DNA of 35,175 nt, from NCBI RefSeq assembly GCF_030378065.1, contig NZ_JAUCGJ010000049.1, forward strand, positions 1 through 35,175, given 5' to 3'. This stretch comes from Candidatus Venteria ishoeyi (GTDB lineage: Bacteria; Pseudomonadota; Gammaproteobacteria; Beggiatoales; Beggiatoaceae). The position numbers and the translations under genes are program-made. Shown here piece by piece: positions 1,438 to 23,783 of the stretch. How positions within the stretch are numbered: the first letter of the stretch is position 1; each line of letters starts with the position of its first letter. Below the pieces are notes generated by a model. That model was given only the letters and a program-made list of their open reading frames with translations. It had not been told where the DNA came from and did no database searches.

Positions 1438-1570
1438 AACCTGAGTTCGATATAAGGTTTTTTTATCCAAAAAAGCTAAAATTCGGCACATGCTATCAAT
1501 AAGTTAGCATGAGGTGGGAGCGGTTTTCAGCGCCATAAGCGCTGAATGAAGCTCGCACCGAATTCAGGTT
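1438..1570. repeat. Family-1 MITE-like element, copy A
   Basis: This 133-bp element fills the hdrC-hdrB gap. Its ends AACCTGAGTTCG (1438-1449) and CGAATTCAGGTT (1559-1570) are inverted repeats with one mismatch. Inside, TTCAGCGC (1526-1533) and GCGCTGAA (1539-1546) form an 8-bp stem. Copies occur at 7641-7770, 8314-8398 (truncated) and 30219-30347. The right end overlaps the hdrC stop codon by two bases. A TA on both sides of ACCTGA...TCAGGT would fit a TA target duplication, but the other copies do not clearly show one. Confidence 0.8.
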
Positions 1571-2180: not shown

Positions 2181-2200
2181 CAGTTAAATACTCCTTCTCG

Positions 2201-2221
2201 TTCCCACGCATTGCGTGGGAA
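2201..2221. repeat. Short GC-rich palindrome between qmoB and hdrC
   Basis: TTCCCACGC (2201-2209) and GCGTGGGAA (2213-2221) form a perfect nine-base stem with a three-base loop. It lies within the operon, just upstream of the hdrC ribosome-binding site. It resembles a dispersed REP-like hairpin and could act as a processing or attenuation point. There is no T-tract, so a strong terminator is unlikely. Confidence 0.6.
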
Positions 2222-2229
2222 TGTCATGC

Positions 2230-6748: not shown

Positions 6749-7635
6749 TCTGTGTCTTTAGGTGGCGTAAATCCGCGTGGCTTGTAATCAAAATCCCGTG
6801 TCGCTTCAATATGTGGATAATATAAAGGCTCGTTCATGCGTTCCATCATCGCGCTGGAAATATGGCGATATTTGGGAAACAGACGTAATACGGTGATTGC
6901 ACTGCGAAACAGCCAGGCGGGGATGGCTAATATGCGCGTGGGTTGCCCGGTGGCCTGGAATATGCGCGCAACCATTTCTTTATAGGTCAGGGTTTCGCCG
7001 CCGCTGAGATTGTAACTGTGCAAGGCGGTATGGGGATGATTCAACGCCTGAATACAGGCAATGGCTAAATCCTCGGCATGTACCGGCTGGCGCTTGCCGT
7101 TGGCAGGTGCCAGCACCGGAAAAAAGTGAAAACGCTGTATGAACTGGGTGATGAAATACACATTTTTATCCCGATTGCAGCCATAAATCAAGGTCGGGCG
7201 AAACAGCGTCCAACGCACCTGGCAGGCATCACAAAGACGCACCACCACAGATTCCGCGTCAATCAAAGCATTGGCAATATCTCGCTCACCAGGATCGGAA
7301 GAATCCAGTTTACAAAAGCGGCTGGTGGAACTAAATGCAATCAAACGCTGCAAATCGGGTAAGTGTTCCAGCAGTTCCGGCAACAGGGTTATCGGTGCCA
7401 GATGCAGCAAAATCTCAGCCTGTTTGCACGGTAGATTTTTGGGTATGGTATTTAAGTCAGCGTTAATCCAGTGGCAGGCTTCATGCCGGGGATGAGCCAG
7501 TACCCAGTCAGGTTTGGGGCGGCGACTCAACGCCATCACCTGATACCCCGCATCCAGTAATTGCGGCAGTAAAAAGCGTCCAATCTGGCTGCTGGCACCA
7601 GTTAATAAGATGGGGTGTTCATTTTGTAGCTTCAT
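6745..7635 (-). CDS. Atypical NAD(P)-dependent SDR (epimerase/dehydratase-like)
   Basis: This 296-residue extended or atypical SDR protein has an N-terminal Rossmann motif LLTGASSQIG, a conserved-looking FSSTSRF strand and RPTLIYG as in YeeZ/complex-I-associated SDRs. The usual catalytic YxxxK is not visible in the expected place. The protein may therefore bind NAD(P) without the normal epimerase chemistry. It is convergent with, and overlaps by three bases, the small membrane-protein gene. A family-1 repeat lies immediately upstream of its start. Confidence 0.8.
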   Translation of the reverse strand: MKLQNEHPILLTGASSQIGRFLLPQLLDAGYQVMALSRRPKPDWVLAHPRHEACHWINADLNTIPKNLPCKQAEILLHLAPITLLPELLEHLPDLQRLIAFSSTSRFCKLDSSDPGERDIANALIDAESVVVRLCDACQVRWTLFRPTLIYGCNRDKNVYFITQFIQRFHFFPVLAPANGKRQPVHAEDLAIACIQALNHPHTALHSYNLSGGETLTYKEMVARIFQATGQPTRILAIPAWLFRSAITVLRLFPKYRHISSAMMERMNEPLYYPHIEATRDFDYKPRGFTPPKDTD

Positions 7636-7640
7636 TTTTC

Positions 7641-7770
7641 AACCCAGGTTCGCTATAAGGTTTTTTAAGTAGAATCAGCCAAATTTAGTACACACTATCA
7701 TAAGCAGCATGAGATGGAAGCAGTTTTCAACGCCTTTAGCATTGAAAGAAGCTTGCATCGAATTCAACAT
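7641..7770. repeat. Family-1 MITE-like element, copy B
   Basis: This 130-bp copy lies in the same orientation as copy A. Its ends are AACCCAGGTTCG (7641-7652) and CGAATTCAACAT (7759-7770). It shares the ATAAGGTTTTTT, ACACTATCA and GCATGAGATGGAAGC blocks and the internal TTTCAACGCCTTTAGCATTGAAA fold-back segments with the other copies. It occupies the whole space between the SDR start and the protease stop, ending one base from that stop codon. Confidence 0.8.
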
Positions 7771-7771
7771 T

Positions 7772-8299
7772 TCAATGCCTCAAAATCAATATATCGCCAC
7801 GCTGGGTAAATTCCAGACGTTTCAAGAAACTCATGCCCAGCAAAATTTCATTGCTTTGCATATTCGGGGTAATCACGCCACGTACCTGCTCCAGCACGAT
7901 ATTACCCAGTTGTACGCTATCAAGCTGTGTATCATAAGCCGTGACCACGCCATTTGCGGTGTTGACCTGACGCGGTGCGCCACGATGCAGATTTAGGCGT
8001 TTTGCCACTGATTGTGGTACGGCAACGCTAGTGGCACCGGTATCAAGCAGAAATATCACGGGTTTACGGTTAATTTTACCGCTGGCAACATAATGTCCAT
8101 AACGATTGCGTTGCAGCACCACTTCAGGGCGTCCACGCTCATCGGTGCGGGATTGCGGGCGGCTGTTGGGGTTGCTTTGCTGTTTTTCGAGATCAGCAAA
8201 AAACCAGGTCAGCAAACCCAGTAATAACGCCCAGGCAGCGATCATCATGCCTTTGCCAACACGCGGTGCATTATCGTTGGAATAAGGGGGGGGAGCCAT
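7772..8299 (-). CDS. Membrane-anchored retropepsin-like aspartic protease
   Basis: The 175-residue protein has one membrane segment (about residues 18-36, MMIAAWALLLGLLTWFF), a polar linker, and a retropepsin-like domain. The catalytic motif is LLDTGATSVAVP (about 103-114). A hydrophobic flap strand and the closing LLGMSFLKRLE follow, matching the clan AA family TIGR02281. The active enzyme should be a homodimer facing the periplasm; substrates of this family are unknown. It stands alone, bounded by family-1 repeats on both sides (copies B and C). Confidence 0.9.
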   Translation of the reverse strand: MAPPPYSNDNAPRVGKGMMIAAWALLLGLLTWFFADLEKQQSNPNSRPQSRTDERGRPEVVLQRNRYGHYVASGKINRKPVIFLLDTGATSVAVPQSVAKRLNLHRGAPRQVNTANGVVTAYDTQLDSVQLGNIVLEQVRGVITPNMQSNEILLGMSFLKRLEFTQRGDILILRH

Positions 8300-8313
8300 A
8301 AAAGCAGTGCCTA

Positions 8314-8398
8314 ATGTTGAATTCGATGCAAGCTTCTTTCAGTGCTAAAGACGCTGAAAACCGCTTCCATCTCATGCTTGTGATTGATAGTGTGTGCC
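8314..8398. repeat. Family-1 MITE-like element, copy C (truncated)
   Basis: This copy is inverted relative to A and B. It begins ATGTTGAATTCGATGCAAGC and keeps TTTCAGTGCTAAAGACGCTGAAAA (in part) and the CTTCCATCTCATGC and GATAGTGTGTG blocks. Similarity then stops, so the right-hand third and right end are missing. It lies upstream of both the protease (-) and acylphosphatase (+) genes and may influence their promoters. Confidence 0.75.
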
Positions 8399-8478
8399 AT
8401 GTTGAAAATTTTATGCGGAATTATGGGCCGCTTACGGTAAAATATAAATAATTATGGAATTTGCAGGGTAATAATAGG

Positions 8479-8760
8479 ATGCATATCCAAGCAATTCACT
8501 GTATTGTCACAGGTCGGGTTCAAGGTGTATTTTTCCGGGCAACAACACGCCATAAGGCGTTACAACTGGGTTTAACCGGTTCTGCCCGCAATTTGCCAGA
8601 CGGCTCGGTGCAGGTGATCGCTTATGGACAAGGTCAGGCTTTATCCCTGTTACGGGACTGGTTACGCATAGGCCCGGATATGGCGCGTGTTGACGATATA
8701 TCTTGTCATGCAACAGCCACTTTGCCCAGTCAGATTCCCACCAATTTTACCACGAACTGA
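8479..8760 (+). CDS. acyP: Acylphosphatase
   Basis: This 93-residue protein is close to the usual length of about 90. It contains the signature VTGRVQGVFFRATTRHKA (Arg of GVxFR binds phosphate) and GSARNLPDGSVQV, in which the Asn of the second motif positions the nucleophilic water. It hydrolyses carboxyl-phosphate bonds of acyl phosphates in the cytoplasm. The ATG at 8479 is chosen; a TTG at 8461 would add six residues. An AGGG sequence lies about 11 bases upstream. The next gene begins 20 bases after the stop, so the two are probably cotranscribed. Confidence 0.93.
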   Translation: MHIQAIHCIVTGRVQGVFFRATTRHKALQLGLTGSARNLPDGSVQVIAYGQGQALSLLRDWLRIGPDMARVDDISCHATATLPSQIPTNFTTN

Positions 8761-8780
8761 CTATCGAAATTAAAGAGACT

Positions 8781-11711
8781 ATGTTAAAGAAATTGTTTAA
8801 ATTCAAGCCAAAATGGCAACACAGCAAAGTTGAAGTTCGGCAACAGGCGGTCACGGCACTGAAGTCTAATCAGGGACAAATCCTGCAACAAGTGGCAACA
8901 ACGGATGAGGCTCCACAGGTGCGCTGTATTGCCGTGCGCAAAATGACGGATATGCGCTTGCTGGATGATATTCGTTTGCAAACTGAAGATAAAACAGTGA
9001 AAGAGGCTGCGGATAAGCGTTATTTACAATTGCTTATGGGCCAGAAAACAGATGCAGTGGATTTGACAGAACGGCTGCAATGTTTGCAGGCACTTGATAA
9101 TGCGCAATGGCTGGAAACTCTGGCGGTTTCCGCTAAAGAGCCAGAATTACGCACTGCGGCGTTGGCGAAAGTCGAGCGGGAAAGTCTGTGCGGGGATATT
9201 GCACAATCGGATCCCGTGGCGGATATTCGTTTGCAGGCAGCAAGTAAAATTCAGCGTAAATCAACCTTGGAACGGGTGCTGAAATCCAGTCGCAGTAAAG
9301 ATAAGCAGGTATTTCGTCAGGTGCGGGAAAAGCTTGACGCGCTGTTAGCAGCCGAAGAAGGACCAAAGCGCTGGCGTAGTGAGCAGGAAGAAACCTGTAA
9401 ACAACTGGAATTATTATTGCGCACCGCGCACTGGAATAAGGCGCAGAAACAGTTGCAACATCTGGCTGAAAAGTGGCAGGCATCAGAAGCGGAAGCGACG
9501 CATTTAAAGCTGGAAAAAACTGAAGCCGATGCGCAACGCGCCAAACACTTTACCCAGATGCAGCAGGAAAGCAGCGCAGCCTGGGAAGCCTGGCAGCAAC
9601 AAAAACAAGCACAAACCCAAACCCGTGAAGCTCAGCAGGCCATACTGGATGAACTGAAACAGCTACAGCAACGCTTTCAACAGCAAGAATTTCTGGAAGC
9701 GGAACGGGTGCAGGAACAGGAAGCGCATCTTGAGACGCTGCTGCAACGCTGGAAACAGGCTGGGCAATTGGTGGATGTTGAACAGCAGAAAATGGATGCA
9801 CAATGCCATCAGGCACAGAACAAACTGCATCATTTGCTGAAAAATCTGTTACATGCGCGCAGTATCGGTAAGGCGCTGGAAAAACTATGCGAAGAGGCAG
9901 AACAACAAAATGCGGATAAGCAGGTGGTTACTGTCCGTGGCCTGGATAAGCTGCGCCGCAGCCGCCGCGCCATTGAACACCTGGAAGCGCCTAACCATTG
10001 GCTGCAAACCCTGGAACAGCGTTTTAACAACGCCGTGCAAGCCCTGGAAAAAAAATTACAGGAACAACAATCACAGCGCAAACATCATCAAAAGGAAATT
10101 CAGGAAAAACTGAAAGCGCTGGAAGCGGCTTTGCAGGAAGGCCAATTACAAACTGCCTTGGCGCTGGAGCATAAAGTCCGGCATTTGCTGGCTTTACTGG
10201 CAGATTTGCCGCCCAAAGAGCGTAAGGACTGGGAAAAACGTTTTCATGCGTGCAGTGCGCAAGTGCATGAATTGCGTGGCTGGCAACGCTGGGGCAATAA
10301 ACTGGAGCGGGAAACTCTGTGCCAGCAGGTTGAAGCCTTAATCGGCATGGAAGCCGACCCGGAGGAGCTGGCAACCCGCATCCGCAACGCCCAGGCAACC
10401 TGGAAAAAACTCAAAGATGGACGTCCGCATAAAACCTTGTGGAAACGCTTTAATGATGCCTGTCAGAAGGCTTATGCGCCGTGTCAGGTACATTTTGAGC
10501 AACAAGCGCAATCCCGCCATCAGCATTATGAACTGCGCGCTGAGCTTTGCGCAGAACTGGAAAAATTTGAACAGAATAATGACTGGGGTGATCGTGGTCT
10601 GGATTGGAAAGCAGCCTGGAATTTTGTCAAGGTGCGCCGTAAAACCTGGTATCAAATCGGCGCAACTGATCGTAAACAACGCAAACCCTTAAATGATCGT
10701 TTTGAAGCAGCGCTGGCAGCGTTGGATAAACATCTGGATCGGGAGCGTAAACGTAATTTTCAGCAACGCAAGCAACTGGTTGAAAAAACCTGGCAGTTAC
10801 AGGAAAAAACCGATATTCGCGAAGCCATTAATGAAGTCAAAGACTTGCAAAGCCAATGGTTAATTAGTGTACCGAGTGGTCGTAAAGAAGAAAATGCGTT
10901 ATGGGATGCTTTCCGGGCAGCTTGTGATGCCGTGTTTGACCGGCGCAAACAGGAACAGGATGAATTCACCCAAAGCCTGAATGCCAACTTAAAAGCCCGC
11001 GAAGCAATTTGTTTGCAACTGCAACAATGGCTGGAAGCGGAAAACCCGGATTGGCCACATTGGTCAAACCAGCAACATAAGCTGCAAGCCGAGTGGAATG
11101 AGATTGGTACCGTACCGAAAAAAGTGCAACGCAGTATTGAGCAGCAGTTTTCAACACTCAACAAACAAGCCCAGCAAGCCTATTATCAATGGCAGAATCA
11201 GCAGCAACACGCGCAATGGGATTTGTTAAAACAAAAAGCAGGCTTATGCAGGCAACTGGAAGCCTTGGCGCTCAGTGGCGAAGCGCAGGATGCAGCCCAG
11301 GGTGAAAATGGGCGCACAGCGATTGAACAAAGCTGGCAGGCTTTACCCGCTTTGGAAAACCGTAACACTGAACAAGCAATTAGCGCGCGTTTTCAAGCGG
11401 CGCAACAACACGATGCCAGCATCCAGGAAACTGCGCAAGACCAGCAACGGCAATTGTGCATACAAATGGAATTACTCAGTGGTATGGCCTCACCAGAGGA
11501 AGATGCCGAGCGTAGAATGCAATATCAAGTTGAGCGCCTGTCAAAAACTATGGGGGCAGGCGGTAGTGAGTTTAACGAGGAAGCGAATGCCACAGGGTCG
11601 GTTGAACCTGCGGAAAAAGATGCGCTGATTCGTCAATTTTACCTGATCGCATCAATGAATGACGATTTGGACACACGTTTTGAAAAGGCGGTTCATTATG
11701 TTCAACAATGA
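8781..11711 (+). CDS. Large DUF349 repeat protein
   Basis: The 976-residue cytoplasmic protein is rich in Gln, Glu, Lys and Leu. Residues 1 to about 190 look like degenerate HEAT-like helices (for example VRQQAVTALKSNQGQ and VRCIAVRKM). Residues ~220-400 are predicted coiled coil. From ~400 to 820 there are about five DUF349 units with the spaced pattern W-x2-IG or similar, then LW-x-RF-x2-A (WKKLKDGRPHKTLWKRF, WYQIGATDRKQRKPLNDRF, WNEIGTVPKKVQRSIEQQF). DUF349 has no established function. The ATG at 8781 is preceded by AAAGAG; an earlier in-frame ATG overlaps acyP. The next gene overlaps its end. Confidence 0.88.
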   Translation: MLKKLFKFKPKWQHSKVEVRQQAVTALKSNQGQILQQVATTDEAPQVRCIAVRKMTDMRLLDDIRLQTEDKTVKEAADKRYLQLLMGQKTDAVDLTERLQCLQALDNAQWLETLAVSAKEPELRTAALAKVERESLCGDIAQSDPVADIRLQAASKIQRKSTLERVLKSSRSKDKQVFRQVREKLDALLAAEEGPKRWRSEQEETCKQLELLLRTAHWNKAQKQLQHLAEKWQASEAEATHLKLEKTEADAQRAKHFTQMQQESSAAWEAWQQQKQAQTQTREAQQAILDELKQLQQRFQQQEFLEAERVQEQEAHLETLLQRWKQAGQLVDVEQQKMDAQCHQAQNKLHHLLKNLLHARSIGKALEKLCEEAEQQNADKQVVTVRGLDKLRRSRRAIEHLEAPNHWLQTLEQRFNNAVQALEKKLQEQQSQRKHHQKEIQEKLKALEAALQEGQLQTALALEHKVRHLLALLADLPPKERKDWEKRFHACSAQVHELRGWQRWGNKLERETLCQQVEALIGMEADPEELATRIRNAQATWKKLKDGRPHKTLWKRFNDACQKAYAPCQVHFEQQAQSRHQHYELRAELCAELEKFEQNNDWGDRGLDWKAAWNFVKVRRKTWYQIGATDRKQRKPLNDRFEAALAALDKHLDRERKRNFQQRKQLVEKTWQLQEKTDIREAINEVKDLQSQWLISVPSGRKEENALWDAFRAACDAVFDRRKQEQDEFTQSLNANLKAREAICLQLQQWLEAENPDWPHWSNQQHKLQAEWNEIGTVPKKVQRSIEQQFSTLNKQAQQAYYQWQNQQQHAQWDLLKQKAGLCRQLEALALSGEAQDAAQGENGRTAIEQSWQALPALENRNTEQAISARFQAAQQHDASIQETAQDQQRQLCIQMELLSGMASPEEDAERRMQYQVERLSKTMGAGGSEFNEEANATGSVEPAEKDALIRQFYLIASMNDDLDTRFEKAVHYVQQ

Positions 11712-12446: not shown

Positions 12447-12483
12447 TAAGACCTTCCAGGTTTTGCCAACCTGGAAGGTCTTA
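12447..12483. repeat. Family-3 palindrome, copy 1 (possible bidirectional terminator)
   Basis: The arm at 12447-12462 (TAAGACCTTCCAGGTT) and its exact complement at 12468-12483 form a 16-base stem with a five-base loop. The same core recurs at 23751-23783. It sits between two convergent genes, and its last three bases are the stop codon of the hydrolase. It could terminate or stabilise both transcripts. There is no T-tract. Confidence 0.85.
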
Positions 12484-13502: not shown

Positions 13503-14438
13503 ATGATAAAAACTAAACAGATCCAGCAAAGCTACCTGACTATAATCCACTTGTTTTCAGTAACTTTGTTGGCTCTTAGCTTATCCGCTTGTGAGCAACA
13601 ACAACAAACAGATTATGAACCGCGTTTTAGTGATCAAGCAAGGCAAGATAAAACGGTTTATATTTTCAGTATTCATCCGCTACACAACCCCACGCGCTTG
13701 TTTGAAGTCTACCAACCACTGATAGATTACCTGGAAACCCATTTGCTAAGTACCCGATTTAAGCTGGAAGCTTCACGTAATTATGCGGCTTATGATGAAA
13801 AATTATTCAGTGGTAAATTTCATTTTTCACTGCCAAATCCTTATCAAACCGTGATGGCGGCTGAACGTGGCTATCAGGTGTTTGGCAAGATGGGCGATGA
13901 TGATAATTTTCGTGGCATTATTCTGGTGCGTAAAGACAGTGGCATTAAGCAGGTGAGCGACTTAAAAAACCAGGCAGTCAGTTACCCCGCACCCACTGCG
14001 CTGGCGGCAACCATGCTGCCACAATGGTATTTATACAGTCATGGTTTAAACATTTTAGAGGATATTGAAAACCGCTATGTGGGTTCGCAGGAGTCTTCAA
14101 TCATGAATGTTTATCTGAAACAAACCCTGGCCGGGGCAACGTGGCCACCACCGTGGCGGGCATTTGCAAAAGAGCGCCCGGAAGTGGCGCAGGCGCTGGA
14201 AATAAAATGGCAAACACAACCTTTGCCAAATAATGGGCTGGTGGTGCGTAAAGATGTACCACAGGCGTTGGTTGATGCGGTTGGCAGCTTGTTATTTCAA
14301 TTACATACGCATGAAACTGGGCGTCAAATTCTTGCCGCGATGGAACTCAGCCGTTTTGAGGCGGCAAATTATGCCACTTATCAACCCGTGCGGGAATTTC
14401 TCAAAAAATTTGAGCAACAGGTGCGCCCGATACGCTAG
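13503..14438 (+). CDS. PhnD-like substrate-binding lipoprotein, copy 1
   Basis: The 311-residue protein has a signal peptide ending in lipobox LSAC (Cys30). It then shows the periplasmic binding-protein pattern of the phosphate/phosphite/phosphonate family (PhnD-like): YIFSIHPLHNPTRLFEVYQP, the LPNPYQTVMAAERGYQVF ligand-loop region, ILVRKDSGI and the inter-lobe region SYPAPTALAATMLPQ. It should be lipid-anchored in the periplasm. No permease or ATPase genes follow; instead a second copy and a hybrid kinase do, so a sensory role is likely. The AGGA before the ATG is unusually close (about two bases). Confidence 0.88.
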   Translation: MIKTKQIQQSYLTIIHLFSVTLLALSLSACEQQQQTDYEPRFSDQARQDKTVYIFSIHPLHNPTRLFEVYQPLIDYLETHLLSTRFKLEASRNYAAYDEKLFSGKFHFSLPNPYQTVMAAERGYQVFGKMGDDDNFRGIILVRKDSGIKQVSDLKNQAVSYPAPTALAATMLPQWYLYSHGLNILEDIENRYVGSQESSIMNVYLKQTLAGATWPPPWRAFAKERPEVAQALEIKWQTQPLPNNGLVVRKDVPQALVDAVGSLLFQLHTHETGRQILAAMELSRFEAANYATYQPVREFLKKFEQQVRPIR

Positions 14439-14497
14439 GATTAATTTAAAAAATCATATAATAAAAATTAGAAAATACTAACCAAAGGTACTTTACT

Positions 14498-15397
14498 ATG
14501 AATCGATTTTTTTTAGTAAGCTTACTGGTGCTAGTATTATGTGCTTGTGAACAACCACAGCAAACTGATTATGTCCCCAATTTTAGCGATCAATCCCGGC
14601 AAGATAAAACTATTTATATTTTCAGTATTTATCCCGGGCATAATCCCACGCGCTTATTTGAAGTGTTCCAGCCGCTGATGGATTATCTTGAAATGCATTT
14701 ACCTGATATCCACTTTAAACTGGAGGCTTCGCGTAATTATGCCGCTTATGATGAGAAGTTATTCAGTGGTAAATTTCATTTTTCATTGCCGAACCCTTAT
14801 CAAACTGTGATGGCGGCTGAACGTGGCTACCAGGTGTTTGGCAAGATGGGCGATGATGATGATTTTCATGGCATTATTCTGGTGCGTAAAGACAGTGGTA
14901 TACAGCAGGTGAGCGACTTAAAAAACCAGGCAGTCAGTTACCCCGCACCCACTGCGCTGGCGGCAACCATGCTGCCACAATGGTATTTACACAGTCATGG
15001 TTTAAACATTTTAGAGGATATTGAAAACCGCTATGTGGGTTCGCAGGAGTCTTCAATTATGAATGTTTATCTGAAACAAACCCTGGCCGGGGCAACGTGG
15101 CCACCACCGTGGCGGGCATTTGCAAAAGAGCGCCCGGAAGTGGCGCAGGCGCTGGAAATAAAATGGCAAACACAACCTTTGCCAAATAATGGGCTGGTGG
15201 TGCGTAAAGATGTAGCACAGGCGTTGGTTGATGCGGTTGGCAGCTTGTTATTTCAATTACATACGCATGAAACTGGGCGTCAAATTCTTGCCACGATGGA
15301 ACTCAGCCGTTTTGAGGCAGCAAATTATGCCACTTATCAACCCGTGCGGGAATTTCTCAAAAAATTTGAGCAACAGGTGCGTCCGATACGTGAGTAA
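14498..15397 (+). CDS. PhnD-like substrate-binding lipoprotein, copy 2
   Basis: This 299-residue tandem paralogue of the preceding gene has a shorter signal peptide with the lipidated Cys at about residue 17 (VLVLCAC). The first ~120 residues differ from copy 1 at many positions (for example SIYPGHNPT against SIHPLHNPT). From about nucleotide 14890 to the end the genes differ by only about seven bases. AAAGG lies 11 bases before the ATG. The stop is three bases before the kinase start. Different N-lobes with an identical C-lobe suggest altered ligand range or recent gene conversion. Confidence 0.88.
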   Translation: MNRFFLVSLLVLVLCACEQPQQTDYVPNFSDQSRQDKTIYIFSIYPGHNPTRLFEVFQPLMDYLEMHLPDIHFKLEASRNYAAYDEKLFSGKFHFSLPNPYQTVMAAERGYQVFGKMGDDDDFHGIILVRKDSGIQQVSDLKNQAVSYPAPTALAATMLPQWYLHSHGLNILEDIENRYVGSQESSIMNVYLKQTLAGATWPPPWRAFAKERPEVAQALEIKWQTQPLPNNGLVVRKDVAQALVDAVGSLLFQLHTHETGRQILATMELSRFEAANYATYQPVREFLKKFEQQVRPIRE

Positions 15398-15400
15398 AAA

Positions 15401-18028
15401 ATGAATAAATTATGGGATTTCTGGACTGCATCAATCCGACGGCAATTAGTGCTGGGGGTGGCGCTGGTTCATGCCTTGTTGATGATGTTATTCATTGTTG
15501 ATTTGGTGGAGCGGCAACGCGAATTTTTGCATCAGCAAAGTCAGCAACAGGCGCTCAGCTTATCTTCAACACTCGCCGCTAACAGCCTGTCCTGGGTATT
15601 AGCCAGTGACTTTATTGGTTTGGAAGAAGTGGTGCGCGCCTTATCCGGTTATCCTGATTTACGTTATGCCATGATTTTAGATCCACAAGGCAAGGTGCTA
15701 GGCCATAGTCAACGTACACTGGCGGGGAAATTTGTCGTTGATGACATCAGCCTGAGTTTTTTGGAAAAAAAACCCAGTGTTCAGATACTGGTGAATACAG
15801 CCCGCATTATTGATGTGGCAGCGCCCATTTTACGGGATACCCAGTTAGTGGGCTGGGCGCGTATCAGCCTGGGGCAGGAGCAAAGTAGTCAGGGTCTACA
15901 GGCAGTGAGCCGGGAAGGGGTATTATATGCCCTGATCGCAATTTTAACCGGCACCCTGTTCGCTTATTTTATGGCCCGGGGTTTGACCCGGGGTTTATAT
16001 CACTTATTAGATGTCGCGGAAAGCACCCGCGCAGGCAAACGCGATCTGCGTGCAAATACCAGCCGCCATGATGAACTGGGCTTGTTAGCCCAGGGTTTTA
16101 ATCGGATGTTGGAGGCGCTGAATACCCGTGAGAGAGAATTACATCAGCTTAACCAAACCCTGGAACAGCGGGTGGAACAGCGTACTGAAGAATTGGAAAA
16201 AAGCCGTAAACGCATGGAAATTGCATTAGATGCCGCAGAAGCGGGTACGTTTTACTGGGACATCAGCACAAATAAGGTCGTTTGGGATAAACGCAGCAAA
16301 AAAATATTTGGTATTCAAGATTTTGATGGTACTTATGCTACTTGGGCAAGTTTTGTTTTGGTCGCCGATCTGAAAGCCTGTGAACAGCACCTCAAAGCCG
16401 TATTACAGGATCCAGACACTGAAGGTTTGAATTTATCTTATCGGATTTGTCGCCCGGATAAGATTATACGTCATATCAACGTATCTGCTTTAATTGATCG
16501 TAATGCAGATGGCAGTGCAAGACTTATCACCGGTCTGCACCAGGATGTAACCAGACAAAAACATCATGAAGCCGAGTTAGAACAGGCGCGCCAGACAGCG
16601 GAACAGGCAAACCAGGCTAAAAGTCGGTTTTTAGCGAATATGAGTCATGAACTGCGCACCCCGCTTAATGCAATCCTGGGTTTTTCACAGTTGATGGCTC
16701 GTTCCCACGACGCAACAAACACCCAGAGGACGCAACTGGAGGTCATTAACCACAGTGGCGAACATCTGCTGGAAATGATTAACGATGTACTGGATCTGTC
16801 TAAAATTGAAGCCGGATGCGTGGAACTGGAACCGGAAGTGTTTGATTTACCGCGTCTGTTGGAAGATATCGGGCAGATGTTTACCATGCGGACTGAAAGT
16901 GCAGGTTTGCGTTTTGCTTTAACCCTGGAGCCGACTTTGGCACATTATGTCAAAGCAGATAATGGTAAATTGCGACAAATATTGATTAATCTGCTGGGTA
17001 ATGCTGTCAAATTTACCCGCGAAGGCGGTATTGCATTACGTGCGCGCACCTTGCCTGAGACCGATGATCCCGATATATGTCTGTTGCAACTGGAAGTTCA
17101 GGACAGTGGATCGGGGATTTTACCAGAGCAGCAGCAGCAAATATTTGAACCCTTTATACAAGCGCATCGTGGTGATAGTGATACCAAAGGCACGGGGCTG
17201 GGCCTTGCGATCTCAAAATCATTTATTGCATTGATGGGCGGTAAAATTCGGCTGGAAAGTCAACCGGGTCACGGTGCACTATTTTGTGTTGAATTACCTG
17301 TGACTTTAGCAGATACCACGGAAGTTGATACTATTACCGAACATCATAAATCGATGGTTGAAGGTCTGGAGCCAGGGCAAACAGCGTGGCGTATTCTGGT
17401 AGTTGAGGATATTGTTGAAAACCGTTTGCTGCTAACTACACTGTTGCGACAAGTCGGCTTTAATGTGCGGGAAACCCAAAATGGTCAGGAAGCGGTGACA
17501 CAATTCCAGGCTTGGCAACCGCATTTTATCTGGATGGATATGCGTATGCCGGTGATGGATGGTTATGAAGCAACACGCCGTATTCGCACACTACCCGGTG
17601 GTGACAGGGTTAAGATTGCGGCCCTGACTGCGAGTGCTTTTAAAGAGCAGCGTGTCGTTATCCTGGATGCAGGTTGTGACGATGTGGTACATAAACCATT
17701 TCGGGAGCAGGAAATTTTTGCAACGATGGCGCACTATTTAGGCGTAGTCTATCGTTATGAAAAAGTCACCGAATACACAACACCAACGTCTGCTGCCATA
17801 GCGGCTCCGCTAAGTGTTGAGGACTTTGTGCAAGTGTCGCAAGCAACATTGGTATCGCTGCAAGATGCTTGCTTGGATTTGGATAACGATAAGATTATTA
17901 CGATTGCTCAAAACCTTCAAGACCTGGATATGAAACTGGCTAACCGCATTCAAGCCATGGCTGAACATTACCAGTATGAGACTTTACTGGCCCTGTGTGA
18001 ACAGGTATTGGCTGACAACCACTTGTAA
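15401..18028 (+). CDS. Hybrid sensor histidine kinase/response regulator
   Basis: The 875-residue inner-membrane protein reads: TM1 (about 14-35), a periplasmic sensor of ~135 residues, TM2 (~173-195), HAMP, coiled coil, PAS (~270-385), HisKA with SHELRTPLN (phospho-His416), and HATPase (NLLGNAVKF, DSGSGI, GTGLGLAI). A REC domain with WMDMRMPVMDG (phospho-Asp713) follows, then a helical C-terminal ~85 residues resembling a degenerate HPt without an obvious His. It follows the two binding lipoproteins at three bases, so the loaded lipoproteins probably contact its periplasmic domain. No cognate output regulator is adjacent. Confidence 0.93.
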   Translation: MNKLWDFWTASIRRQLVLGVALVHALLMMLFIVDLVERQREFLHQQSQQQALSLSSTLAANSLSWVLASDFIGLEEVVRALSGYPDLRYAMILDPQGKVLGHSQRTLAGKFVVDDISLSFLEKKPSVQILVNTARIIDVAAPILRDTQLVGWARISLGQEQSSQGLQAVSREGVLYALIAILTGTLFAYFMARGLTRGLYHLLDVAESTRAGKRDLRANTSRHDELGLLAQGFNRMLEALNTRERELHQLNQTLEQRVEQRTEELEKSRKRMEIALDAAEAGTFYWDISTNKVVWDKRSKKIFGIQDFDGTYATWASFVLVADLKACEQHLKAVLQDPDTEGLNLSYRICRPDKIIRHINVSALIDRNADGSARLITGLHQDVTRQKHHEAELEQARQTAEQANQAKSRFLANMSHELRTPLNAILGFSQLMARSHDATNTQRTQLEVINHSGEHLLEMINDVLDLSKIEAGCVELEPEVFDLPRLLEDIGQMFTMRTESAGLRFALTLEPTLAHYVKADNGKLRQILINLLGNAVKFTREGGIALRARTLPETDDPDICLLQLEVQDSGSGILPEQQQQIFEPFIQAHRGDSDTKGTGLGLAISKSFIALMGGKIRLESQPGHGALFCVELPVTLADTTEVDTITEHHKSMVEGLEPGQTAWRILVVEDIVENRLLLTTLLRQVGFNVRETQNGQEAVTQFQAWQPHFIWMDMRMPVMDGYEATRRIRTLPGGDRVKIAALTASAFKEQRVVILDAGCDDVVHKPFREQEIFATMAHYLGVVYRYEKVTEYTTPTSAAIAAPLSVEDFVQVSQATLVSLQDACLDLDNDKIITIAQNLQDLDMKLANRIQAMAEHYQYETLLALCEQVLADNHL

Positions 18029-18034
18029 CATCCG

Positions 18035-19261
18035 TTATTTGGCTAAAGAAAAAACCGTCAGCGCCGCACTTTTGCCTTTTACCTGAATTTCATGTTTAGA
18101 CGCAGCAGGCGGGGATTCAAGACTTTGATACAAGGCGCTGGATAATAATATTTCACCGGATTTGGCATGGTCGCACAGGCGTTTTGCGGTATTGACCGTA
18201 TCGCCAATAATGTCATAAGCTTTAATGTATTCACCGCCAATTAAACCTTCCACCAAAGGCCCTGCATGTAAACCAATACCCGCGCCCAAGCCATAGCTAT
18301 CAAGAAACAAACTGATACGTTGATGCAGACACAAGGCCGTTTTTAAGGCATTCTCTTCTGCGGCAAATACAATCATGATTTCATCGCCGGTGAGTTTGGC
18401 TTTAATCACATCACTATGCGCCCAACAGTATTCAGCTGTTTCACAATAGCGGTTGAGCATGGATACCACGGCTTCCGGTGATTGCGCTTCGGACCAGCGG
18501 GTAAAACCACGAATATCCATAAACAGCACGCAACGTCTGCGTCGGTTCAGACTCAAACTGGCGGGATCAGCCATAGCGGGTGCAAGGCGGTCTTTGCCCA
18601 GCAGCCATTCAGAGTAACGGCGTAATTGTTCTCCGGTATCGCGTAGCATCAACAGGAAATTTTCAGAATCACGGCGGGCAAAGCCCATCATCAGGCCTAT
18701 TAATAAAATCGTAATTGCCAGAAAAATATGGCTGGCATCAGCAAAAAAAACAGTCAGATTATGGTAATCACTTTCCGCGAGCATGCCAAAAACCCAATAC
18801 ATTACCAGCACGATACTGGCGCGTATGACATTTTCCAGGATGATCAGTAAATCCGCTGACCAGCCATAAAGATATAGCCGGATCTGTTGAATACAGCCTA
18901 TCGCCAGGGCAAAGCCCCAGTATGCCAGATGATTGGGAGCGTCAAAAAAGCGGTCTCCCAGTGATAGCTCAATCACGGTGTATATGGCGGGCGCAATCAA
19001 ATTGCCAATAAAGGGATGCGGTGTACCCGCATATTGCCAGCGCCCGACGATTGTTGCCTGTAGCAGGCAGGCAAATAACAGGATATAAAAATCAGGCGCA
19101 GAAAAATAATATCCCGGGCCTTCAATCAACAGTTCCAGAAAAATATTAGCGATTGGAAAATGCGCGGTATTAGCGAAAAATTCCTGCATAATCCGATTTT
19201 TTAAGGTACCGTGCAGGCGCTCGTCAAGATCCAGGGGGCGGGATGCGGTGGAGGATTTCAT
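18035..19261 (-). CDS. Membrane-bound class III adenylate/guanylate cyclase
   Basis: The 408-residue protein has an N-terminal region with about six membrane segments (residues ~50-205) and a C-terminal class III cyclase domain. Metal-binding aspartates are Asp249 (FMDIRGFT) and Asp293 (KLTGDEIM). Lys289 and the DTVNTAKR motif supply adenine recognition and transition-state residues, so cAMP is the likelier product. The start overlaps the kinase stop by four bases (ATGA), which makes it the third gene of the response regulator-kinase-cyclase operon. It converges with the hybrid kinase, only six bases apart. Confidence 0.92.
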   Translation of the reverse strand: MKSSTASRPLDLDERLHGTLKNRIMQEFFANTAHFPIANIFLELLIEGPGYYFSAPDFYILLFACLLQATIVGRWQYAGTPHPFIGNLIAPAIYTVIELSLGDRFFDAPNHLAYWGFALAIGCIQQIRLYLYGWSADLLIILENVIRASIVLVMYWVFGMLAESDYHNLTVFFADASHIFLAITILLIGLMMGFARRDSENFLLMLRDTGEQLRRYSEWLLGKDRLAPAMADPASLSLNRRRRCVLFMDIRGFTRWSEAQSPEAVVSMLNRYCETAEYCWAHSDVIKAKLTGDEIMIVFAAEENALKTALCLHQRISLFLDSYGLGAGIGLHAGPLVEGLIGGEYIKAYDIIGDTVNTAKRLCDHAKSGEILLSSALYQSLESPPAASKHEIQVKGKSAALTVFSLAK

Positions 19262-20625
19262 GGGGCTGAAATTGGAAAAGTCAGGCAGATTTTAAGTCCT
19301 TTATTATCGATACCGGCATCCAGGCTGATGTTGGCTTGGTGCAATTCGGCAATGCGGTGAACGATGGAAAGACCCAGGCCGCTGCCGCTGATATGCTGAT
19401 GGCGGCCACGACGGAAGCGCTCAAACATGTTCTGATGTTCCGTGACCGGAATACCCGGCCCATTATCAATGACGCACAATTGCATGTCTCCGGCTTTGCT
19501 TATCGTGCTGGCAATAGTAACCAAACTGCCCGGTGGACTGTAACGAATGGCATTATCGACTAAATTGCGCAATAACAAAAATACACTGGCGCGATTTGCC
19601 GTTAAATGCGCTGCTGAAACATGGGGTTCAAATGCCAGTTGGATGCGTTTATTTTGGGCTTGATCCAGCAATACATTAAACACTTCGGCGCAGAGTTCTC
19701 TCAAATCCAGCATTGTGGTTTCCAAATCCTGATAGGCATCCATACGCGCCAGTGTTAGTAATTGTTCGACCAGATGGGTGGCGCGATCCGTAGCAGTGAT
19801 AATCTGCTCCAGTGATTGGCATTTTTGTTCCGGATCAGCGGTGCGCAAGGCAACTTCAGCTTGTAATTTAATACCTGCCAGCGGTGTGCGCAGTTCATGT
19901 GAGGCATCCGAGGTAAAACGACGTTCATTGGCAAAGGCTTGTTCCAGGCGTTGAAAAAGATAATTTAAGGCGCTCAGCAGTGGACGAATTTCTTCCGGGG
20001 CCTGGGCATTGGTGACAGGCTCCAGGCGGGAGGGGTCACGGGCTGCAATTTCCCGCGTAATCAGCGCCAGTGGTCGCAGGCTGTGACCAACACTCAGCCA
20101 GATGAGTAAAGCCAGTATAGGAATGCCGATAAACAAAGGTTTGAGTACAGTCTCCATGACTTCTTCAATCATTTCATTGCGCACATCGTAGCGTTCCCCG
20201 GTTTTGACCAGAATACCCAGGCGGGGTTCTTCAATGCTGAATATCCGCCAGCGCTCACTGTCTATATTCATATCATAAAAGCCCAGGCGTTCATCATCAG
20301 GCGCAAAATCAGGCGCGAAGGGTGCATGCAAGACCAGATTATCTTTTTTCAGGCGCACCATAAATGTCAGTTTGCTTTCATATTTGTGCAGATTGCTCAT
20401 CACCGGTTCCTGGAATACGGCTTCCAGCCCCTCTAATTGCCCTTGCTCATGGCGATGCGCTACCAGTGCCAGTAAAGTCCGCGCACTCTGCGCCAGCATG
20501 GCATCATAAATTTCTTCTGCCTCATGCTCGGTTTCAATGAAAGTCCACAAGGTCAATAAGCCCCACAACAGGATAATAGTACCTAATAACAACACTAACA
20601 GGCGACTGCGTAAGGAATGTCTCAT
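19258..20625 (-). CDS. QseC/PmrB-type sensor histidine kinase
   Basis: This 455-residue two-TM kinase has TM1 at about 9-29, a periplasmic domain of ~130 residues containing the FSIEEPRLGILVKTGERYD segment in part, TM2 (~162-182) and HAMP. HisKA carries SDASHELRTPLAGIK (phospho-His243), and HATPase carries NLVDNAIRY, DNGPGI and GSGLGLSI. The pattern matches the QseC/PmrB/TctE group, which pairs with OmpR-type regulators. It overlaps the regulator and the cyclase by four bases on each side. Its signal is unknown; the nearby haem proteins suggest redox or oxygen. Confidence 0.92.
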   Translation of the reverse strand: MRHSLRSRLLVLLLGTIILLWGLLTLWTFIETEHEAEEIYDAMLAQSARTLLALVAHRHEQGQLEGLEAVFQEPVMSNLHKYESKLTFMVRLKKDNLVLHAPFAPDFAPDDERLGFYDMNIDSERWRIFSIEEPRLGILVKTGERYDVRNEMIEEVMETVLKPLFIGIPILALLIWLSVGHSLRPLALITREIAARDPSRLEPVTNAQAPEEIRPLLSALNYLFQRLEQAFANERRFTSDASHELRTPLAGIKLQAEVALRTADPEQKCQSLEQIITATDRATHLVEQLLTLARMDAYQDLETTMLDLRELCAEVFNVLLDQAQNKRIQLAFEPHVSAAHLTANRASVFLLLRNLVDNAIRYSPPGSLVTIASTISKAGDMQLCVIDNGPGIPVTEHQNMFERFRRGRHQHISGSGLGLSIVHRIAELHQANISLDAGIDNKGLKICLTFPISAP

Positions 20626-21287
20626 GAATTTATTTTTTCGATTAAATAACCTACGCCGCGCAGCGTTTTAATCAAATCTTTTCCCAGTTTTTTACGCAAG
20701 CGATGAATGTGGACTTCCACTGCGTTACTTTCCACCGTTTCATCCCAGCTATACAGGCTTTCCTCCAATTGAGAGCGGGATAAAACCCGGCCCACATTTT
20801 CCAACAGGCTTTGCAGCACAGAAAATTCCCGCGCTGACAGTGTAATGGCTTTACCTGCCAGACTCAAGGTATGGGTGGCGGGATCCAGTTCCAATTCAGC
20901 GTGGCGCAGACAGGGCGTTGCGCGTCCGCCGCGTCGCCGTAGCAGCGCACGCAAACGGGCGTTGAGTTCGTCCAGGGCAAAGGGTTTTACCAAATAATCA
21001 TCGGCACCATTGTCCAGGCCACTGACCCGATCTGCGATTGCATCCCGGGCTGTCAGAATCAATACCGGCATTTCATTACCTGCTGCGCGCAATTCATGCA
21101 ACAGTTGCAAACCATCCTTACCCGGCAAAGACAAATCCAGGATCAGGAGTTCATAGCTTTCTATATTCAGTGCATGTTCACCGGATTCGGCATTTTCCAC
21201 CCAATCGACAGCATAACCAGCCCCGTGCAGACCCGCCTGCACACCGTTGCCCAGGATTAGATCATCTTCAATCAGTAGTAAACGCAT
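20622..21287 (-). CDS. QseB/PmrA-type OmpR-family response regulator
   Basis: The 221-residue protein has an N-terminal receiver domain (IEDD acidic pocket, phospho-Asp51 in LILDLSLPGKDG, Lys in LVKPF) and a C-terminal winged-helix DNA-binding domain (LSAREFSVLQSL, VEVHIHRLRKKLG, TLRGVGYLI). It is the first gene of the operon with the kinase and cyclase. Two direct-repeat boxes of PmrA/QseB type lie in its upstream region, one oriented toward it, which fits autoregulation. Confidence 0.94.
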   Translation of the reverse strand: MRLLLIEDDLILGNGVQAGLHGAGYAVDWVENAESGEHALNIESYELLILDLSLPGKDGLQLLHELRAAGNEMPVLILTARDAIADRVSGLDNGADDYLVKPFALDELNARLRALLRRRGGRATPCLRHAELELDPATHTLSLAGKAITLSAREFSVLQSLLENVGRVLSRSQLEESLYSWDETVESNAVEVHIHRLRKKLGKDLIKTLRGVGYLIEKINS

Positions 21288-21342
21288 AGGTCATTCTCTA
21301 AATTGTGCCTTGAAATAGTAAAACACAGTATGTTGATTCCAT

Positions 21343-21359
21343 CTTAAGCCCAGCTTACA
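21343..21359 (-). promoter_or_regulatory. Putative PmrA/QseB-type box for the regulator operon
   Basis: Read on the minus strand, TGTAAG-N5-CTTAAG is a direct repeat of the YTTAAK-N5-YTTAAK pattern known for PmrA-type regulators. It points toward the response-regulator gene, 56 bases away, and mirrors the box at 21385-21401. Confidence 0.5.
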
Positions 21360-21384
21360 GTTTGGCAGATTATCTTCAGAAAGC

Positions 21385-21401
21385 TGTAAGTTTCGTTTAA
21401 G
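21385..21401 (+). promoter_or_regulatory. Putative PmrA/QseB-type box for the cytochrome operon
   Basis: TGTAAG-N5-TTTAAG on the plus strand is the mirror partner of the minus-strand box, 25 bases away. It faces the cytochrome b561 gene, which starts 58 bases downstream. A further TTAAG follows at 21411-21415. Confidence 0.5.
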
Positions 21402-21459
21402 TTTGAGTTGTTAAGTTATTGACTCAATAAAATCAGCTATTTTTTATGGATAAAGAGGC

Positions 21460-22593
21460 ATGGATAACAATACATCAGCACATTCCAGCACGGAACCCGT
21501 GCGCATCTGGGATTTACCCACCCGGATATTTCATGGCTTGTGGATCACTTTTTTTGTATTGGCGTGGGTTTTCCACGAAGACAACCGTTATCTGAATATT
21601 CATGTTTTTGCCGGTTATGCCTTTTTAGCGTTGCTTTTATTCCGCTTATTCTGGGGACTGTTCGGCAGCCATTACGCGCGTTTTCGTCATTTTTTTTATA
21701 CACCTGGCGCGGTAGTCACTTATTTGAAATGCTTACTGAGCATACCCCAACAGATTACCGGGCATAACCCCGTCGGTGCCTGGGCTATTTTTATACTGTT
21801 GGGCCTGGGTTTAGTCGTGTCACTTTCCGGCTTGATTACGCTGGGCGCAGAAGAGCGTCAAGGCCCTTTAGCCACTTTATTTCACCCGGCAACAGGGCTG
21901 CTGTGGCATGAGATCCACGAATTTCTGTCCTGGTTGATGTTGGCTGTGGTTGCGGCGCATGTATCCGGTGTCATTATAGAAAGTATTCTGCATCGGGAAA
22001 ACCTGGCGCTGGCGATGATCAATGGCAATAAACAACGCCCTGCATCAACGCTGGGCGTACCCCGGCATGGAAAAATGGCGTTGTTGCTGTGCATTTCCAT
22101 ATTACTGGGAGCCGGATTTTATTTTGGTGCTTGTCTGCCATATGAATCAGGACGCGCCTGCCAACCTTTTTTAGGGCCAAAATTACCCGACAATGTTTTG
22201 TGGCGCGAAGAATGTGGCAGTTGCCATGCCATTTATCACCCCACCTTATTACCACAACGTTCCTGGGTAAAAATTCTGGATACGCAACATCAGCATTTTG
22301 GTGAGGACTTGGATCTGGATACAGACAGCCGCAATGAAATCCACAATTTTTTGACGACCTATGCTGCCGAAACCCTGCTCACGGAAGCCGCTTATAAAAT
22401 TCTGCGCTCCATTCCGCCCGAAACAACGCCACTGCGCATTACTGAAACAGCGTATTGGCAGAAAAAACATGCGGATATTTCGCAATTGATCTGGCAAAGC
22501 CCACAAGTGCGCAGCCGTGCTCAGTGTGAGGCTTGTCACCTGGATGCTGCCGTGGGTACCTACGAAGACAGCGCAATGTTTATTCCCAATTGA
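21460..22593 (+). CDS. Cytochrome b561 fused to a diheme cytochrome c domain
   Basis: The 377-residue protein has a Ni-hydrogenase/formate-dehydrogenase-type cytochrome b561 domain (about residues 15-190, four membrane segments, with haem-ligand histidines such as RIFHGLW, NIHVFAGY and HEIHEFL). A fifth TM segment (~208-228) leads to a periplasmic domain with two CxxCH haem sites, CGSCH and CEACH. That domain resembles the separate DHC protein encoded two genes later (…LLPQRSWVKIL against LLPARSWQKIM). It should pass electrons from quinol across the membrane to the periplasmic cytochromes. An AAAGAGG ribosome-binding site precedes the ATG. Confidence 0.92.
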   Translation: MDNNTSAHSSTEPVRIWDLPTRIFHGLWITFFVLAWVFHEDNRYLNIHVFAGYAFLALLLFRLFWGLFGSHYARFRHFFYTPGAVVTYLKCLLSIPQQITGHNPVGAWAIFILLGLGLVVSLSGLITLGAEERQGPLATLFHPATGLLWHEIHEFLSWLMLAVVAAHVSGVIIESILHRENLALAMINGNKQRPASTLGVPRHGKMALLLCISILLGAGFYFGACLPYESGRACQPFLGPKLPDNVLWREECGSCHAIYHPTLLPQRSWVKILDTQHQHFGEDLDLDTDSRNEIHNFLTTYAAETLLTEAAYKILRSIPPETTPLRITETAYWQKKHADISQLIWQSPQVRSRAQCEACHLDAAVGTYEDSAMFIPN

Positions 22594-22648
22594 GTGCTTA
22601 ATTGAATTTTATATGTAATTTTTATTTATTTTTTAAGGAGTTATCATA

Positions 22649-23068
22649 ATGAAACATCCACTGTTCGCGTCTGTTTTATGCCTGGGTCTGGGCTGTAGTT
22701 TGCAGACAACAAGCTGGGCGGCTGAATCTGCCACAGTCACGCAACTGCTTGCTGAATATCAACAGGCAGGCGCGGCTGAATTCAGCGTTGAGGCTGGTAA
22801 AGCACTGTGGGAAAAATCATTTCCCACGGCAGATGGTAAACAGCGCAGTTGCACCGCTTGTCATCATTTGGATCTCAGTAAGGCGGGAGAGCATGTCCGC
22901 ACGGGTAAAACCATTGCCGCAATGGCACCCAACGCCAATAGCAAGCGCCTGACAAAACTGAAAAAAGTACGCAAATGGCTGAAAAGAAATTGTAAATGGA
23001 CGCTGGGAAGAGTCTGTAATACCCAGGAAAAAGGTGATCTACTGGTTTTTCTCAGTGCTAATCAGTGA
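22649..23068 (+). CDS. SHP-like monoheme cytochrome c (DUF1924)
   Basis: The 139-residue protein has a Sec signal peptide (cleavage near SWA-AES, residues 22-27) and one haem motif, CTACH (68-72). The C-terminal segment KRNCKWTLGRVC is typical of the sphaeroides haem protein family (DUF1924). There an Asn is the sixth haem ligand, displaced by O2, and a nearby cysteine pair forms a disulfide. Asn114, next to Cys115 with Cys123 following, fits this after signal removal. It lies in the b561-SHP-DHC operon and probably receives electrons from DHC. The AAGGAG site is ideal. Confidence 0.9.
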   Translation: MKHPLFASVLCLGLGCSLQTTSWAAESATVTQLLAEYQQAGAAEFSVEAGKALWEKSFPTADGKQRSCTACHHLDLSKAGEHVRTGKTIAAMAPNANSKRLTKLKKVRKWLKRNCKWTLGRVCNTQEKGDLLVFLSANQ

Positions 23069-23097
23069 AATTCTTAAACAATAAGGAACATTCTCTT

Positions 23098-23664
23098 ATG
23101 AACGAAAAGACTTTATACACTTTAAGCGCCACCGCTTTAATATTAAGCGCAGGTTTATATGCCGCTTTCTCTTTTGCGGATGATGATGACGATGATCATG
23201 ACTATGGTAAAAACAATAAATACCAAATTCATATCACAAATAACCCATCCTATCAGGAAGAATGTGGTGCTTGCCATATCGCTTATCCATCTGCTTTACT
23301 GCCAGCACGTTCATGGCAAAAAATCATGAGTGGATTATCGGATCATTTTGGTGAAAATGCCGAACTGGAAGCGGCAACCCAGGCGCAACTGACAGAATAT
23401 CTATCCACGCACAGCGCTGAACATGATAAATCCTACCTTCCTCAAAAACTACTGCGCAGATTGCCATCCGGGCAAACACCATTGCGTATCAGTGAATTAC
23501 CTTATTTGCGCCATGAGCATAAAGAAATTCCGGTGCGGATGATTAGCAACAACCCAAAAGTTAAATCTATCAGCCAATGCAATCACTGTCATACACAGGC
23601 AGACAAAGGCAGCTTTGCAGAACGGGAAATTAATATTCCTGGCGTGGGGCGCTGGGATGATTAA
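23098..23664 (+). CDS. Diheme cytochrome c (DHC)
   Basis: The 189-residue protein has a signal peptide (TLSATALILSAGLYAAFSFA), then a very acidic stretch (DDDDDDHD) at the mature N-terminus. Two CxxCH haem sites follow, CGACH and CNHCH, with HFGENAEL and PLRISELPY between them, as in the DHC family (PF09626). It is the expected electron donor to SHP. The ATG at 23098 with AAGGA upstream is chosen; an earlier GTG overlaps the SHP stop but gives a poorer signal peptide. The C-terminal half is paralogous to the b561 fusion protein's tail. Confidence 0.92.
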   Translation: MNEKTLYTLSATALILSAGLYAAFSFADDDDDDHDYGKNNKYQIHITNNPSYQEECGACHIAYPSALLPARSWQKIMSGLSDHFGENAELEAATQAQLTEYLSTHSAEHDKSYLPQKLLRRLPSGQTPLRISELPYLRHEHKEIPVRMISNNPKVKSISQCNHCHTQADKGSFAEREINIPGVGRWDD

Positions 23665-23750: not shown

Positions 23751-23783
23751 AGACCTTCCAGGTTTTCAAAACCTGGAAGGTCT
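23751..23783. repeat. Family-3 palindrome, copy 2
   Basis: The arms AGACCTTCCAGGTTTT (23751-23766) and AAAACCTGGAAGGTCT (23768-23783) are perfect 16-base complements. The core matches the copy at 12447-12483. It lies between the convergent DHC and oxidoreductase genes. The surrounding 23665-23911 holds only a doubtful 56-codon frame (23731-23901) that reads through this palindrome. Confidence 0.85.

Follow-up and report, generated by a model that had tools for sequence, protein, structure and literature searches.

A 172-bp intergenic region in a stretch of DNA from Candidatus Venteria ishoeyi, a gammaproteobacterium of the Beggiatoaceae, appears to be a divergent promoter pair. The stretch (hereafter the window) comprises 35,175 nucleotides of contig NZ_JAUCGJ010000049.1, and the region (21288-21459) separates two operons. 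The left operon (complement 18035-21287) encodes a QseB/PmrA-type response regulator, a QseC-like kinase and a class III cyclase, in that order. The right operon (21460-23664) encodes a fusion of cytochrome b561 and dihaem cytochrome c (DHC), the sphaeroides haem protein (SHP) and a separate DHC. We propose that the adjacent regulator controls both operons, with cyclic AMP (cAMP) as a second output, and put the probability of this reading at roughly 0.7. Control by one regulator is well supported on the SHP side; on the regulator-cyclase side, which has a box and a candidate -10 element matching four of six positions at the right spacing, our confidence is fair. The original prediction, made from the letters of the sequence, had described mirror-image boxes in this region, TGTAAG-N5-CTTAAG facing left and TGTAAG-N5-TTTAAG facing right, 25 bp apart. 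Direct reading bore this out, together with the 4-bp ATGA overlaps of the left operon (20622-20625 and 19258-19261), and Pfam and NCBIfam agreed with the identities it had given to the regulator, kinase, class III cyclase, b561, SHP and DHC.

The SHP-facing box and the kind of regulator beside it

Both boxes score 11/12 to the pattern YTTAAG-N5-YTTAAG, with TGTAAG as the first half in each, and both have the two tandem TTAAG-type half-sites, 11 bp apart, of a PmrA-type box. To compare them with other SHP operons, we drew SHP loci from the family of the window (equal to its order in this set; 42 genomes, among which that of the window is the sole member of its genus), from genomes of its class and from named contigs, and scanned each over a stretch beginning 160 bp before the first gene of the operon and ending 20 bp inside it. 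There were 142 loci at the outset (the window, L069-L128, L175 and L211-L290), of which the last 80 are the best of at least 516 named-contig loci and are biased towards SHPs like that of the window. Dropping 3 loci without an SHP match, 18 duplicates and 6 with less than 150 bp upstream left 115: 12 beside a regulator of the SK2 kind, 56 beside one of the SK1 kind, 46 without a near regulator and 1 other. The names SK1 and SK2 follow Meyer et al.; loci were assigned to them by bit score to the response regulator and kinase of the window (for SK2, at least 220 and at least 100, respectively) and not by a tree, and one locus whose kinase lies off the contig, L078, was assigned to SK2 by hand.

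The two kinds of operon carry different boxes. Box A (YTTAAG-N5-YTTAAG, at least 11/12) precedes 9 of the 12 SK2 (QseB-type) operons and 2 of the 56 SK1 operons, and box B (YTTCAG-N5-YTTCAG, same threshold) precedes 1/12 and 35/56, with L101 and L092 counted for both. Shuffled upstream sequences gave boxes at a rate of 0.2-1.8%. Fisher tests of box kind against regulator kind gave p values of 2e-7 and 8e-4, which overstate the independence of the loci because the genomes are related. In L072 and L079 the automatic choice of first gene fell on another gene, giving scores of 8 and 9; a neighbouring gene of the cluster is preceded by boxes that score 11 and 12, which lie outside the counts. From these comparisons, conservation of the SHP-facing box in relatives, matched to the kind of regulator, is well supported.

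A small gene before the SK1 regulator matched PepSY in the four loci checked, once below the cut-off, which likens SK1-type regulators, and not the kind found in the window, to the PepSY-kinase-regulator modules of the DbfQ-DbfRS type described in PMC12714742. Separately, L085 (upstream of 9762 in G028) carries the same 17-bp box-like sequence, matching at 10 of 12 positions, three times around the start of its SHP cluster.

Predicted promoter anatomy

Aligning the loci on their boxes revealed a second recurrent feature. The -10-like sequence TAnnnT follows 19 of 25 A boxes and 37 of 42 B boxes at an offset of exactly 10; no other offset between 0 and 33 has it more than 3 times. PhoB-dependent promoters have a similar 10-bp spacing between box and -10 element. 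In a PmrA-dependent promoter, the -35 element has been placed at the first half-site (PMC4660055).

In the own genome of the window (4.4 Mb), TGTAAG-N5-YTTAAG occurs exactly four times. Two of these are the window boxes, the third lies inside a leucine-rich-repeat gene and the fourth in a hairpin that separates two convergent genes, leaving the window boxes as the only exact matches located upstream of genes. Scored as a composite of box and -10 element at the conserved spacing, the region reaches 14 and 15 on its two strands. Among 5000 dinucleotide shuffles of 21288-21459, 0.06% reached at least 14 on both strands.

Recognition helix of the regulator

Several positions distinguish the two regulator kinds, including 193 (H or Y), 195 (H or R/N/K) and 196 (H or R); the window regulator has H193, H195 and R196. 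It shares N188, H193, H195 and R210 with BasR and has R at 196 rather than N, giving it a PmrA-like recognition helix. H193 and H195 were proposed as base-specificity determinants of PmrA from a docked model (PMC3973317), and the PmrA crystal paper names N188, N196 and R210.

Among 25 regulators parsed (one of 26 loci could not be parsed), R196 occurs in the window only, and among 25 A boxes only that of the window has G at the second base of its first half-site (TGTAAG). We considered the rule that R196 reads this G. As stated it fails, because 51 of 56 SK1-type regulators carry R196 and yet have T at that base of their boxes.

The cyclase and its linkage

The cyclase is probably a membrane-anchored adenylate cyclase. 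D249 and D293, which we take to be the metal-binding aspartate pair of a class III cyclase, are invariant in nine aligned rows, as is the ATP-selecting Lys/Asp pair K289 and D350. At these last two positions the guanylate cyclase chain 3et6 carries E and C, and the residues of the window cyclase match those of the ATP-converted 5oyh. The model (predicted local distance difference test score, pLDDT, 84.6) shows about six long helices N-terminal to the catalytic domain. Compared with 7yzk, most of the length aligned, but the global fit was poor (template-modelling score 0.42-0.45, root-mean-square deviation 15.5), and the catalytic domain ranks nearer to Cya2, CyaC and CyaB than to 7yzk.

Relatives with the N-terminal part were present in 9 of the 42 family genomes, including that of the window; two further genomes have partial or cut-off copies. 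Among 274 evenly drawn genomes of the class, five contain a match at E <= 1e-60, namely that of the window, two more from the family and two others, and a scan of genome contigs found no relative. The link to haem genes recurs: G005 and G006 have the cyclase, b561DHC-SHP-DHC and the regulator pair together in a single run; G014 has a 387-bp gap after the cyclase, then an unmatched gene and DHC; and in G036 the cyclase comes after PepSY and b561 genes.

Five of the cyclases lie away from a regulator. Their upstream regions have composite scores of 16, 13, 13, 14 and 13, which shuffles of the same regions reached in 0/500, 5%, 1.6%, 0.6% and 11% of cases, respectively. Of 96 control genes, 5 reached a score of 13 (Mann-Whitney p 8e-5). 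Cyclase starts in L083, L168 and L169 were set by alignment, and control genes were taken from their first start codon. We regard a cAMP tie by co-regulation within this bacterial family as supported by these predicted sites and gene arrangements. As a separate observation, G005 (L083, 8301-8328) has three tandem half-sites, forming two overlapping exact boxes, right after the DHC stop codon, followed by a terminator-like hairpin and then the cyclase.

Divergent sites and a possible wider family regulon

Three family genomes also have an exact box with its -10 element in the gap between the regulator and a divergently oriented neighbour, so predicted divergent control beside the regulator gene is a recurrent arrangement in the family. 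In G019 (L307, about 1501-1549) an EptA-like gene and the regulator-kinase pair lie to either side of a single palindromic CTTAAG-N5-CTTAAG box, which reads in both directions and is flanked by two -10 elements. Opposite the regulator lies DUF2202-b561 in G001, and a gene with a weak CXXCH-repeat match in G039. A pair of separate mirror boxes was seen in the genome of the window only. DUF2202 recurs near b561 genes, in L300 at 1570-3033 (G001, divergent from the regulator) and in L172 at 7006-9911 (G036, past the PepSY-b561-cyclase genes).

Across the family, the exact pattern YTTAAG-N5-YTTAAG-N10-TAnnnT has 21 sites in 17 of the 42 genomes, against 5 for the reversed pattern. Their contexts include SHP or DHC clusters, the regulator-divergent sites, a cytochrome c' gene in G020 and, in G003, a gene whose multihaem matches are sub-threshold; some sites have no evident redox gene nearby. 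The contexts suggest a haem/redox leaning of the family regulon. For the own genome of the window we claim no wider regulon.

Alternative explanations

Several results weigh against the proposed divergent pair. On the right, the original prediction of one regulator for both operons has a conserved, regulator-matched box and a fixed -10 spacing behind it; the regulator-facing box is not generally conserved. Of 15 regions upstream of regulators, two reach 11/12, those of the window and of L181 (where the regulator start was moved by hand), and L073 and L078 have 10/12. The candidate -10 of the left operon, CATACT, also misses the T of TAnnnT. The regulator might then control the SHP operon only, the left box being weak or a chance match and the regulator-cyclase operon having a constitutive promoter of its own. 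We consider this unlikely. The left box shares the unusual TGTAAG half-site with the right box, its -10 matches 4/6 at the conserved offset, and its composite score of 15 was reached by 0.34% of shuffles on the given strand. Furthermore, a consensus scan of the intergenic region found no sigma-70 pair, which fits activator-dependent promoters and proves nothing. Control of the left box by the same regulator seems likely.

The cyclase sites raise similar doubts. Two of the five away from a regulator are weak against shuffles (5% and 11%). The other four cyclases score 9-13, with shuffle values of 13-99%, as would be expected for genes within operons, though G005 is among them; there the 160 bp before the cyclase contain no box, and exact boxes are found farther upstream. 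The two cyclase relatives from outside the family (G074 and G165) have a box of neither kind.

Another OmpR-family regulator of the cell might read the boxes, the adjacent pair being merely a neighbour. Many family genomes have an SHP operon with a box and no adjacent regulator (for example L069, L070, L071 and L074), so the reader may be encoded elsewhere; over all 46 operons without a near regulator, box A is present in 16 and box B in 7. We hold this explanation to be highly improbable, as the kind of box follows the kind of adjacent regulator, and the one regulator in the own genome at E <= 1e-60 is that of the window (71 of 167 candidates scored).

Finally, the boxes could be chance matches in an AT-rich intergenic region. 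Sites with one mismatch show no clear excess in the own genome: 47 for TGTAAG-N5-YTTAAG against 40 for the reversed-pattern control, and 7 against 9 for the composite of box and -10; exact YTTAAG-N5-YTTAAG occurs twice, against 7 in the control. Three of the 12 SK2-type SHP operons also fall below 11/12, one of them at 8. Nevertheless, the conservation, the regulator matching, the fixed -10 spacing in relatives and the shuffles already disfavour chance for the right box, and leave this explanation with hardly any credibility. A divergent pair under the adjacent regulator is what we prefer.

Gene identities and neighbouring features

The features of the locus are collected in Table 1. The regulator combines a receiver with a Trans_reg_C winged helix, and its closest solved chain is BasR/PmrA (E 3.6e-52). 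It missed the NCBI equivalog cut-offs for QseB (259 against 345 bits) and PmrA (253 against 330), and the kinase missed that for QseC (284 against 475), so we name the regulator only to the level of QseB/PmrA-type. The right operon is an SHP operon in that it has genes for SHP, a b-type cytochrome and DHC. In SHP, the CxxCH motif and W110, N114, C115 and C123 are invariant across 22 proteins; by spacing, the latter four map to W84, N88 and C89-C97 of the R. sphaeroides protein, the residues connected with O2 binding (PMC2909971). For the last DHC gene, the sequence makes ATG at 23098 a likelier start than GTG at 23065 of the listed open reading frame.

Table 1. Genes and candidate control elements around the divergent region (positions in the window).
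Feature	Position	Strand	Basis
Cyclase, class III, with helical N-terminal part (about residues 1-235); predicted adenylate cyclase	18035-19261	-	PF00211, 78.9 bits
QseC-like sensor histidine kinase (2CSK_N, HisKA, HATPase_c)	19258-20625	-	Pfam; NCBIfam QseC, 284 bits
QseB/PmrA-type OmpR-family response regulator	20622-21287	-	PF00072, 84.7 bits; PF00486, 82.1 bits; both above cut-off
Candidate -10 of regulator operon, CATACT, 10 bp past left box	21327-21332	-	4/6 to TATAAT
Left box, TGTAAG-CTGGG-CTTAAG, faces regulator operon	21343-21359	-	Direct reading; genome-wide pattern scan
Possible third half-site, CTTCAG, one turn upstream of right box	21374-21379	+	Sequence reading
Right box, TGTAAG-TTTCG-TTTAAG, faces SHP operon	21385-21401	+	Direct reading; pattern scan; counterparts in relatives
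Candidate -10 of SHP operon, TAAGTT, 10 bp past right box, preceded by TG (21409-21410)	21412-21417	+	Box-aligned comparison
Cytochrome b561-DHC fusion (CytB/mDHC chimera)	21460-22593	+	PF01292, PF09626
SHP (DUF1924)	22649-23068	+	PF09086, 116 bits
DHC	23098-23664	+	PF09626, 137 bits

Beyond these operons, 13503-18028 holds two adjoining PhnD-like binding proteins and then a hybrid histidine kinase with an sCache domain, perhaps a ligand-sensing unit. A 31-bp palindrome (GACCTTCCAGGTTTT..AAACCTGGAAGGTC) lies at 12450-12480 and 23752-23782 and is dispersed in the own genome, in about 34 places at up to two mismatches against 0 for the reversed pattern. An Rfam search of the window gave no match.

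Discussion

We infer the following mechanism. On receiving its signal, the QseC-like kinase would phosphorylate the regulator, which would bind each tandem box head-to-tail, as PmrA does. Activation would follow with the box standing in for the -35 element and the -10 exactly 10 bp downstream. The right box would drive the b561/DHC-SHP-DHC operon, whose products have been proposed to pass electrons of quinol on to a haem protein that binds O2. The left box would drive the regulator's own operon and, since its last gene is a probable membrane-anchored adenylate cyclase, cAMP would be a second output of the same signal. The original prediction had also tied redox or oxygen sensing to cAMP. That claim survives in part, as the co-regulation within the family described above; for the sensing itself, neither a signal nor a sensor residue was identified.

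The linkage of SHP operons with QseC-like kinases is already published: in 2010, Meyer et al. (PMC2909971) reported the SHP operon beside a QseC-like (SK2) or other kinase and proposed that the QseC-like pair regulates SHP. Their operon, like that of the window, has CytB/mDHC, SHP and DHC beside a QseC-like pair; the consulted parts of their paper describe neither a DNA box nor a cyclase, and in the window the pair is divergent and accompanied by a cyclase. The same paper describes the b561-DHC chimera and a proposed path from quinol through DHC to SHP, presents SHP as unique among known c-type haem proteins in binding O2, with its function open, and proposes that it is an oxygenase rather than a sensor.

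The window boxes resemble the PmrA box, the BqsR operator and the QseB site (PMC3973317, PMC4682146, PMC10714720) in their tandem TTAAG-type half-sites one helical turn apart, and their spacing is the same as in TTAAG-N6-TTAAG, the operator of BqsR, another regulator (PMC4682146). They differ in having TGTAAG as the first half of both boxes, and in their targets, a haem chain and a cyclase as opposed to the polymyxin-resistance or biofilm genes described for the other three. The cyclase likewise resembles the membrane-anchored class III adenylate cyclases of Rv1625c/Cya type (7yzk; PMC4821796) in its putative N-terminal helical anchor and single class III domain, and unlike them it is linked to DHC, b561 and SHP genes, its poor global fit being a further difference. 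Among open-licence PMC papers we found none that describes a DNA box at SHP operons or links SHP with a cyclase, and the literature search found no TGTAAG paired with a QseB or PmrA box; the regulator-matched boxes were likewise not found in print.

One published response bears on the signal. In A. vinosum, Alvin_0019 to 0025, which encode an iron efflux pump, DHC, b561, DUF1924, DHC, a membrane protein and a two-component regulator, rise on pyrite compared with sulfide, DUF1924 by a log2 value of 7.1 (PMC11267869). The response is a hint of metal or sulfur signals, perhaps ones that serve a regulator of another kind.

SHP operons offer a natural set of promoters for two regulator kinds, with boxes that differ mainly at one base per half-site. 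Such a promoter code would tell which kind reads the SHP operon in each species, making the signal testable by reporter. A broader scenario is speculative, and we think it rather less than probable: a QseB-type regulator of the family may have turned to a haem/redox regulon, with the anchored adenylate cyclase reporting on the b561-DHC-SHP chain, and across bacteria the SHP operon may have passed between the two regulator kinds through a single-base change in each half-site, TTAAG or TTCAG, with corresponding changes at recognition-helix positions 193, 195 and 196, a natural specificity-swap series. For the relatives of large sulfur bacteria, the repeated cyclase link points to a cAMP output tied to a periplasmic haem chain.

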